DNA from: Candidatus Martarchaeota archaeon
GTDB lineage: Archaea; Micrarchaeota; Micrarchaeia; Micrarchaeales; Micrarchaeaceae
Direction: 5' to 3'
Length of the DNA stretch: 39,011 nucleotides
Assembly (NCBI GenBank): GCA_023473255.1
Contig: JAMCYW010000033.1
Span: 1-39,011, forward strand
Under the pieces are notes generated by a model that was not told the DNA's origin, made no database searches, and saw only the letters and a list, made by a program, of their open reading frames with translations. The first letter of the stretch is position 1, and each line of letters begins with the position of its first letter. Positions 11,601 to 36,126 of this stretch are shown here, one piece after another. The position numbers and the translations under genes were made by a program.

Positions 11601-11903
11601 ATGGCCAAAAAAGAACTAGCTTGGAATGAAATAACGTCGCCGACCGGCGATGGCAGCCTCTTTGCATTGAAAGGAAAGAAATATCGCATAATAGGGACGC
11701 TGAAGGAAGATCCTAGCTACGGTGAATGCAAGCAGCTGTGCAGAGTGTCTGAGATTAATTGTGATACTAGGGACAAATTTGCAGTCATTGTCTCTTACAT
11801 CAGAATCGATAGAGACTCGTTTGACGCTAAACGCGCAATACTTTCTAAACCAGTAAAGGACAAAGAATCTGCAATGGACATGTTCGAAAGCGCGAGGGGC
11901 TGA
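11601..11903 (+). CDS. Hypothetical 100-aa protein
   Basis: A 100-aa soluble protein with no signal peptide or membrane helix. The start is ATG 11601 (MAKKELAWNEITSPTG). It contains an isolated CKQLC pair and one further Cys, then a predicted alpha/beta stretch (KFAVIVSYIRIDRDSF). No family was recognised. It stands alone between the surface locus and the minus-strand run of nucleotide-metabolism genes, with no clear operon partner. The opposing ORF 11616-11939 is rejected as a shadow. Confidence 0.55.
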   Translation: MAKKELAWNEITSPTGDGSLFALKGKKYRIIGTLKEDPSYGECKQLCRVSEINCDTRDKFAVIVSYIRIDRDSFDAKRAILSKPVKDKESAMDMFESARG

Positions 11904-12000
11904 ATGCATGCACGGCCAGTGCGGAGAACACATAGACAATAGATAGAACGATTGTTATCAAGATACTTCGGCAATGCATCAGCATTGCAGAATTGGCAGC

Positions 12001-12603
12001 TTAATACAGCCTATGTGCCCGTATTGGTTTGCCGGCTATTGCGCGCGCATCTGAAACATAAAAGCAAAGGTTGGACAAAGAATAATCAGCAGACATGTTG
12101 AATGGGTATTCCCGCGATTTGCTGCCGTGATTTTGCTTTTTCCAAGCGGTAACTGTCGCTAATACGCTCCCGTCGGGATATTCCTCGAGCGCCTGCTTAA
12201 TCGCCTTTGCTTTTAATTCTGCTGTCCCTATGTCCATTCCGTTTATAAAAAAGGCAATTAGCTTGTTTTCACTGTTATTCTTATAATAAAAATCGGTCAT
12301 GAGGCAGAGCGTGGCTTCGTTGCTCGTCTGGCTTTTTATTGCCTTTATTGATGTTATGCGTATGCAGTATTGGCCCATCCTTCCGTAGCTTGAGGCACGC
12401 TCAAAGAATCCATCAGGCTCGATGCTCTGCCATGAAGATATCCGTAACCCATATTCTATTTCAGATAAATGATAGCTTGGCTCATTCCTTAGCATATGGG
12501 TTACATTATAGCTTGAACCCTGCTTAACACCATCAGCAATAGGCTTTGGCTTTGCCTCCTGAAAAAAGTCATCAAGCGCCTGTTGTTTGAGTTTTGTTGG
12601 CAT
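12001..12603 (-). CDS. Unknown protein with N-terminal PCNA-binding (PIP) box
   Basis: A 200-aa protein whose N-terminus reads MPTKLKQQALDDFF. QQALDDFF matches the PIP-box pattern Q-x-x-(L/I/M)-x-x-(F/Y)-(F/Y) exactly, so an interaction with the sliding clamp PCNA is likely. The remaining ~180 residues (GLRISSWQSIEPDGFFERASSYG, NKLIAFFINGMDIG, SVLATVTAWKKQN) do not match a family I recognise. The start at 12603 is preferred because an AT-rich AATATATTAATATC lies about 29 nt upstream and places the PIP box at the extreme N-terminus. ATG 12672 would add 23 residues. It is downstream of the NUDIX and kinase genes on the same strand, consistent with DNA replication or repair. Confidence 0.7.
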   Translation of the reverse strand: MPTKLKQQALDDFFQEAKPKPIADGVKQGSSYNVTHMLRNEPSYHLSEIEYGLRISSWQSIEPDGFFERASSYGRMGQYCIRITSIKAIKSQTSNEATLCLMTDFYYKNNSENKLIAFFINGMDIGTAELKAKAIKQALEEYPDGSVLATVTAWKKQNHGSKSREYPFNMSADYSLSNLCFYVSDARAIAGKPIRAHRLY

Positions 12604-12700
12604 CAGTATAATATTTTGATTTTCAGATATTAATATATTATGGTCCGCATGCCTTTCAGGCAAACTCTTCATTTGCTTGGTGTAAATATTTTATTTCACA

Positions 12701-13234
12701 TTATTTGTCTCCAGATGCCCTGCAGCTCATTTTCATATCTATTACAGTGTTGGAATCTCCAAAAAGGAAATGCGCATCCACGAATTTGCCGTTCATAACA
12801 TGTGGCAGCCAGTATTTGTCGTCATCCCACATCATATCCAAAGGTATGGAGCTTATTTCGAACCATTCTGGCTTCATCTCTTCGCTTTCTGATATTTCCC
12901 CACTCCATTCGTCTGCTATGTATACATGGACCCTCTGGTTGAATTCACTTTTAGGATTGCTCCCTCCGAAATAGAAGCAAAGGGTGGCTGCCTTGTAATA
13001 ACTTTTTGGCCTTGCTCCGACTTCCTCCATCGATTCCCTTATCATTGCATCTTCTACTGTTTCGCCTTGCTTGAGCTTGCCTCCGACGCCGTTTAGCTTG
13101 CCCTGCCCGAAGCCGCGCTTCTTCATTGCCAGCAGCACTTTCGAAGTCTTTTTATCTACGAAATAGCAAAGGGTTACGTCCCTAAGAGAATCTGAATATT
13201 TATCAATGTAGTCGCTTATTTTGTCTTCATCCAT
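12701..13234 (-). CDS. MTH1-like NUDIX hydrolase (oxidised dNTP sanitiser)
   Basis: A 177-aa NUDIX hydrolase. The Nudix box GGKLKQGETVEDAMIRESMEEVG fits GX5EX7REUXEEXGU. Resemblance to the MTH1/NUDT1 branch is unusually specific. The residues before the box (GFGQGKLNGVGGK) mirror MTH1 GFGxGxWNGFGGK, and MMWDDDKYWLPHV near residue 140 mirrors the MTH1 MWPDDSYWFPLL region that reads the base. MTH1 hydrolyses 8-oxo-dGTP and related oxidised purine nucleotides; substrate identity here is inferred. ATG 13234 (MDEDKIS) is preferred over TTG 13255. It lies between the PIP-box orphan and a P-loop kinase on the same strand. Confidence 0.85.
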   Translation of the reverse strand: MDEDKISDYIDKYSDSLRDVTLCYFVDKKTSKVLLAMKKRGFGQGKLNGVGGKLKQGETVEDAMIRESMEEVGARPKSYYKAATLCFYFGGSNPKSEFNQRVHVYIADEWSGEISESEEMKPEWFEISSIPLDMMWDDDKYWLPHVMNGKFVDAHFLFGDSNTVIDMKMSCRASGDK

Positions 13235-35076: not shown

Positions 35077-36126
35077 ATGTCAGTAGACCTTAGCAAATTG
35101 ATAAGCAGGCGCAAGATAGATCTTGCCGAGCTGAACGGCAAAACAGTAGCCATAGACGCATACAACGTGCTCTATCAATTCCTTTCGATAATACGGCAGC
35201 CGGACGGCTCGCTGCTTATGGATTCCAAAGGCAGGGTCACAAGCCATCTTTCAGGGCTGTTTTACAGGACCATAGACATCATCGGGTATGGCATAAAGCC
35301 GATATATGTATTTGATGGGCTGCCTTCGGCACTTAAGCAGAAAACAATAGAGGCTAGGATGACTAGGCGGAATGATGCATATAAAGCATGGGAGAGCGCA
35401 AGAGAAGCTGGCAACCTTGAAGGCGCCAGGATGCATGCGCAGGCGAGCAGCAGGGTAGACAAGAATATAGTAGAATCATCCAAAAAGCTGCTTGATTATA
35501 TGGGCGTAGCATACATAAGCGCCCCAAGCGAAGGAGAGGGGCAGGCGAGCTACATGTGCAAAAACGGACAGGTATACGCTGTGGGCAGCCAGGACTATGA
35601 CACGCTGCTTTTCGGCGCTAAAAACGTAGTCAGGAATTTGACGTTTTCCGGAAGGAGGAAACTCCCCAAAAAAAACGTCTATGTAAATGTCGAGCCTGAG
35701 CTCGTTAACTTAGACGATACGCTCAATGCACTTGGAATAAGCAATAGGCAGTTGGTATGGATAGGCATAATGCTGGGAACCGATTTCAATGATGGAATTA
35801 AGGGAGTAGGTCCTAAAACTGCTTTGAAAATTGCCAAGGGCGCAAAATCGATAGACGACATAAAGGCATACATAATGCAAAAGTACAATCAAGAGTTTGA
35901 ATTGCCCATTGAAGATGTAGAAAGCCTTTTCTTAAACCCCGAAGTGGTTGATATAGACGATAAATTTATTGCAGACGCCAGGGCAATACACCCGGATGTT
36001 GAGGGCATAGTGGGCTTCATGTGCGGCGAACATGAATTTTTAGAGGATAGGATTAGGAAATTTGCTAACGTTCTGGTAGATAAGTCCAGCAAGGCAAAAC
36101 AATCAACAATAGGCACGTGGTTTTGA
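35077..36126 (+). CDS. fen: Flap endonuclease 1 (FEN-1)
   Basis: A 349-aa structure-specific 5' nuclease for Okazaki-fragment maturation and repair. The XPG-N part includes AIDAYNVLYQFLSIIRQPDGS and YVFDG; the XPG-I part has APSEGEGQASYM and SQDYDTLLF; the H2TH region follows with LGTDFNDGIKGVGPKTAL. The last residues QSTIGTWF form a canonical PCNA-interacting PIP box (QxxIxxWF). Residue 2 is Ser where nearly all homologues have Gly (MGV...); the ATG follows TGATTCT. Coupled with MBF1. Confidence 0.97.
   Translation: MSVDLSKLISRRKIDLAELNGKTVAIDAYNVLYQFLSIIRQPDGSLLMDSKGRVTSHLSGLFYRTIDIIGYGIKPIYVFDGLPSALKQKTIEARMTRRNDAYKAWESAREAGNLEGARMHAQASSRVDKNIVESSKKLLDYMGVAYISAPSEGEGQASYMCKNGQVYAVGSQDYDTLLFGAKNVVRNLTFSGRRKLPKKNVYVNVEPELVNLDDTLNALGISNRQLVWIGIMLGTDFNDGIKGVGPKTALKIAKGAKSIDDIKAYIMQKYNQEFELPIEDVESLFLNPEVVDIDDKFIADARAIHPDVEGIVGFMCGEHEFLEDRIRKFANVLVDKSSKAKQSTIGTWF

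Follow-up and report, generated by a model that had tools for sequence, protein, structure and literature searches.

Beyond the conserved core, few archaeal clients of PCNA are known, namely NucS, NreA/NreB and TIP. The PIP-box has been defined as QXXhXXaa, with KTTQSTLDSFFK as the published archaeal consensus peptide (PMC4929162), and such motifs are usually found at the very N- or C-terminal end of a protein (PMC3504372). The PIP of NreA is required for repair, and TIP is a lineage-restricted, non-essential protein that in vitro inhibits the interaction of PCNA with PolB and with FEN-1 (PMC4929162). Here we describe a protein encoded within a 39,011-nucleotide contig of a Candidatus Martarchaeota archaeon (hereafter, the window), which joins an N-terminal PIP-box to a predicted OB fold. 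The reading that we prefer, and to which we assign about an even chance, is that it acts as a small accessory DNA-binding factor, a clamp-tethered, SSB-like OB protein handling ssDNA at PCNA.

The gene occupies positions 12001 to 12603 on the reverse strand (ATG at 12603-12601, stop codon at 12003-12001) and encodes 200 amino acids, beginning with MPTKLKQQALDDFFQEAKPK... and ending with ...GKPIRAHRLY. A longer in-frame start is present at 12672, 23 codons upstream. In the closest orthologue, carried by contig L012, an in-frame TAA stop codon stands immediately before the equivalent of this upstream ATG. Additionally, a TATA-like AT-rich stretch (12628..12641, reverse strand) precedes the start codon of the 200-residue protein by approximately 25-38 bases and is identical in L012; its sequence makes it a candidate promoter, of archaeal type, for a leaderless transcript. 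A sigma-70 scan, which is ill-suited to archaea, gave no excess. Because the stop codon in L012 precedes the upstream ATG and the TATA-like stretch is common to both, we consider the 200-residue start to be right; the reading frame and start given in the preliminary description are thus borne out by the stop codon of the orthologue. L012 itself (G151:C47), a contig of 3.7 kb, was assigned to a genome that belongs to another family and has 3% contamination. Three proteins neighboring the orthologue are 96-97% identical to their counterparts in the window, and L012 is probably a mis-binned contaminant that comes from a strain close to the window organism.

Residues 7-14 of the protein (12562..12585, reverse strand) read QQALDDFF, which had been called an exact PIP-box consensus and does match the published QXXhXXaa (PMC4929162). 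The motif is terminal and lies outside the folded domain, which begins at about residue 76. The same class of motif had been ascribed to the C-terminus of FEN-1 (35077-36126), a reference clamp client from outside the family; FEN-1 ends in KQSTIGTWF and its PIP-box, QSTIGTWF, is found at 36100..36123 on the forward strand. An exact terminal motif of the form Qxx[LIM]xx[FYW][FYW] is present in 0.24% of the 831 ORFs of the complete relative G010, where FEN-1 is one of the two proteins that carry it, and approximately 0.1 would be expected by chance among the roughly 40 genes of the window. Taken alone, the exact box would be suggestive of a genuine PIP. The orthologue on L012, 74% identical overall, keeps the motif as QKGLDDFF: 17 of the 29 positions between residues 2 and 30 have changed, and all of the anchors (Q, L, F and F), along with both aspartates, are retained. 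The probability of such retention by chance is approximately 0.02 for the four anchors and 0.002 for all six residues. Together, the exact box and its orthologue make what we regard as a convincing case at the sequence level for a putative genuine PIP. The motif is followed by a linker (residues 15-75; 12379..12561, reverse strand) that diverges fast, is absent or short in relatives with a C-terminal PIP, and is probably disordered.

The preliminary description stated that the rest of the protein matches no known family, and by sequence this is true of every library searched, since no family match was found in Pfam, NCBIfam, PHROG or PDB. Two candidates, DUF1968 (Pfam E-value 0.012, below the cut-off) and ribosomal L5 (PDB E-value 0.44), were rejected as chance matches. 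Structure prediction, which the same description had proposed, brought out a feature that it had missed: the core domain (approximately residues 76-182; 12058..12378, reverse strand) is predicted by AF2 and Foldseek to adopt an OB fold, a shape found in DNA-coating proteins. The AF2 model of the trimmed core, built on 18 sequences, had a pLDDT of 80.8 and a pTM of 0.72, and replaced a model built on three sequences (pLDDT 33), from which only the strand order was used. Its elements follow the beta-beta-beta-alpha-beta-beta order of the OB fold, with strands at residues 12-27, 33-43 and 46-55 of the trimmed construct, a helix at 59-75, and strands at 81-91 and 102-107. The best 50 Foldseek matches in the PDB were mostly OB folds, chiefly bacterial SSB, PriB, Rim1, TEBP and Cdc13. 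Toxin-subunit OB folds were also among them, and the top match (E-value 8e-4) is a bacterial protein toxin subunit, not a DNA-binding protein. With viral models as the target, most of the named matches were to SSB and LEF-3. Foldseek probabilities reached 1.00; because the best E-values are modest (1e-3 to 1e-2) and the TM scores are 0.3-0.5, we take these results as the assignment of a fold and not as homology to any one family. The loop between strands beta4 and beta5 is a usual nucleic-acid contact in OB folds. Here this L45-type loop, KKQNHGSKSRE (12109..12141, reverse strand), is basic and precedes a conserved YPF; it is net positive in 16 of the 18 family members and is a candidate nucleic-acid contact.

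The immediate neighbors of the gene encode a NUDIX hydrolase and, by a weak match, a P-loop nucleotide kinase, and in the preliminary description they were taken as a hint at function. That suggestion does not hold, as their order is found only in a near-identical strain, distant relatives lie among different genes, and the gene has a promoter-like region of its own. The neighborhood is not conserved and is therefore uninformative on function; no conserved operon with replication genes was present across the family loci that we compared. Two other arrangements were observed at these loci. In four loci of one genus (L131, L132, L136 and L137) the OB gene, which there lacks a PIP, always lies beside an orphan gene of approximately 180-194 codons, possibly its partner. 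In G058 (L139:2353-5097) the OB gene is adjoined by a gene for a helicase of the UvrD type that has a PD-(D/E)XK nuclease domain.

In order to find relatives of the window protein we used both single-sequence and profile searches. With the single sequence as query, 99 related genomes yielded two distant relatives, and iterated profile searches of 301 genomes of the phylum converged on 18 genes in 17 genomes, all of them in two families of one order. The family is absent from most genomes, including those of both genus-mates of the window organism (88% and 74% complete). Weak matches in G266 (an unrelated-looking short ORF) and G050 (a long ORF resembling a Fic-domain protein) were rejected, and matches in L004, L017 and L020, which fall inside glycosyltransferase-like and gyrase-like ORFs, were set aside by eye. 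When genome contigs and viral contigs were scanned with back-translated patterns, no relative turned up; the divergence within the family is probably too great for this approach. Within-genus pairs of members keep both their sequence and their neighbors, which indicates vertical descent. This is an undescribed, fast-changing family, restricted to one group of tiny archaea. Genome sizes of 0.4-1.3 Mb, together with FEN-1 and ribosomal proteins in the window and PCNA, PolD and archaeal SSB in relatives, suggest a DPANN lineage, probably Micrarchaeota.

The PIP is distributed unevenly across the family. It is C-terminal in G010 (QITLDRF, ending the protein) and G126 (QTKIDDF), takes looser C-terminal forms in G018 (KTTLDGF) and G040 (KTNLDNF), is C-terminal and degenerate in G137 (IRRLEDF), and is N-terminal in G038 (QPNLDNY). 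About half of the lineages have none (G011/G034/G052, G106/G109, G006/G049, G058 and G161), so that PCNA binding is no constant property of the family. Conservation of the motif in orthologues, a check proposed in the preliminary description, gives a mixed picture: the motif persists in L012 and, in its core form, in G010, G126 and G038, and about half of the lineages have kept only the fold. Known clients of the same lineage carry similar motifs, namely FEN-1 (QKTITKWF), RNase HII (QTTLDKFG) and PolD DP2 (QFNLSKYM), and the motifs of G018 and G040 have the same shape as the C-terminus of RNase HII of G010. That RNase HII (G010:C1:813077-813826, in L122) has a non-aromatic residue at position 8 of its C-terminal PIP-like string, which from its sequence suggests a relaxed PIP in the lineage of G010.

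A core PIP near a terminus is present in 4 of 13 non-redundant members, twice at the N-terminus and twice at the C-terminus, as against 1.7% of the 831 background ORFs, an excess of approximately 18-fold. The binomial P is approximately 5e-5, and a count of 4 of 13 was not attained in any of 2000 shuffles; the core pattern is Qxx[LIM]xx[FYW] within 27 residues of a terminus, and since this limit was set post hoc the P value is a guide. The background is the proteome of the complete relative G010, with mechanical ORFs as gene calls. The core-domain tree places the window clade, with its N-terminal PIP, as sister to the clade of G018 and G040, with a C-terminal PIP (support 82/83). Between these sister groups, therefore, the motif has either moved or undergone loss followed by regain; a short motif is retained while its position in the protein shifts.

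These figures bear on an explanation that dispenses with the clamp. The OB protein could act elsewhere, on RNA, in translation or on another protein, with the PIP-like strings owed partly to chance and the perfect box of the window protein being a late and perhaps dispensable addition. OB folds are functionally promiscuous and also bind proteins, RNA or sugars, which suits such a role, as do the uninformative gene context and the loss of the motif from half of the lineages. However, terminal PIPs exceed both the background and the shuffles, and the anchors are conserved within a fast-diverging tail; we consider an action away from the clamp rather improbable.

The comparison with L012 revealed a block of approximately 17% divergence (11761..12720), centred on the PIP gene between flanks that are about 98-99% alike. 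Besides the PIP gene, the block includes the end of an adjacent ORF of 100 amino acids; this ORF (11601-11903, forward strand) has no family, and its C-terminal half lies inside the block. Synonymous divergence (dS) is 0.37 in the PIP gene and 0.01-0.14 in its neighbors, whereas nonsynonymous divergence (dN) is 0.25 in residues 1-75 as against 0.07 in residues 76-185. Because the synonymous rate is raised, these values point less to selection on the protein alone than to recombination, by which the allele of a more distant strain replaced the resident one, or else to old polymorphism. An SSB-like factor of a mobile element, a virus or a counter-element that recruits the host clamp would account for the fast evolution, the patchiness and the allele replacement. 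Such an origin agrees with the high-divergence block between near-identical flanks, with the low identity of members other than the closest copy to the window protein (11-29%, within one order), and with the Foldseek matches to viral SSB and LEF-3 folds. However, no relative was found in viral contigs, PHROGs or phage genomes, the neighbors are ordinary chromosomal genes, and the within-genus pairs point to vertical descent. We regard a selfish origin as very unlikely.

The genome of the window organism has a separate, canonical archaeal SSB (G000:C20; L154, PRK06461 family), and therefore the OB protein of the window is an additional one. It has no match to SSB or RPA profiles in Pfam or NCBIfam, and a comparison of its family with the lineage's own SSB gave no sequence link (hhalign probability 0.1%). 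PCNA was above the cut-off in 30 of the 31 genomes searched, both genus-mates included; the sole exception, in which it was not found, is the genome of the window organism, which is 83% complete.

That the protein binds PCNA and ssDNA, and what role it has, we infer from these observations; we consider it likely to be a replication or repair factor. As the accessory factor that we prefer, it would dock its N-terminal PIP-box in the hydrophobic pocket of PCNA, and the flexible linker of approximately 60 residues would let the SSB-like OB domain reach ssDNA, a DNA end or a flap next to the clamp. Relatives would carry this tether at the opposite end of the protein. The protein would work alongside the canonical SSB and not as its replacement. 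It might, for instance, retain short ssDNA at Okazaki junctions or at lesions, or pass ssDNA between PCNA clients such as FEN-1. More specifically, and tentatively, as we hold it somewhat less probable than not, the protein may be a clamp-tethered second single-strand-binding protein from an order-specific OB family, whose PIP tether has been gained, lost and moved and whose core is diverging fast. If an SSB-like OB fold does operate with a PIP beside a normal SSB, reduced genomes would have a new means of linking ssDNA handling to the clamp. Should the second-SSB interpretation be true, each lineage may possess a clamp accessory, or a protector of ssDNA at forks, that is peculiar to it. Natural members with an N-terminal PIP, a C-terminal PIP or none make the coupling directly testable.

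Among described proteins, TIP gives rise to the main rival of this proposal. It is likewise a small, lineage-restricted archaeal protein with a proposed extreme N-terminal PIP, a short linker and a small domain (PMC4929162). By analogy, the window protein could be a competitor or regulator of PCNA whose PIP fills the client pocket and whose OB domain either contacts a protein or obstructs access, with no DNA bound, so that FEN-1, PolD or RNase HII is displaced under some condition. The shared plan and the patchy distribution (17 of 301 genomes) fit such a non-essential regulator. However, the fold class differs: TIP, by its description, is a 64-residue protein of Thermococcales with a putative partial PH-like domain, whereas the window protein has 200 residues and a predicted OB fold. 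The Foldseek neighbors are also mostly nucleic-acid-binding OB folds, the L45-type loop is basic, and we judge a regulator of this type unlikely. The window family differs from TIP further in that its PIP may be found at either end.

The accessory factor that we propose would be of the same OB-fold class as archaeal SSB and RPA, to judge from the prediction; the canonical SSB of the lineage, however, has an acidic C-terminal tail and no PIP in seven aligned copies, and the window protein has no such tail. NreA and NreB similarly bear a terminal PIP and are archaeal PCNA clients outside the core set (PMC4929162), but at about 400 residues they are widely conserved, with no OB relationship shown. 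Searches of the open-access literature found no paper that joins these features in such an archaeal protein, and NucS is the nearest. NucS/EndoMS is also archaeal and combines an OB/Sm-like ssDNA-binding domain with a terminal PIP (PMC4929162); it additionally has a RecB-like nuclease domain, which is absent from the window protein, a protein with no Pfam match. On the basis of its sequences, the family would appear to belong with the lineage-specific archaeal PCNA clients NucS, NreA and TIP.
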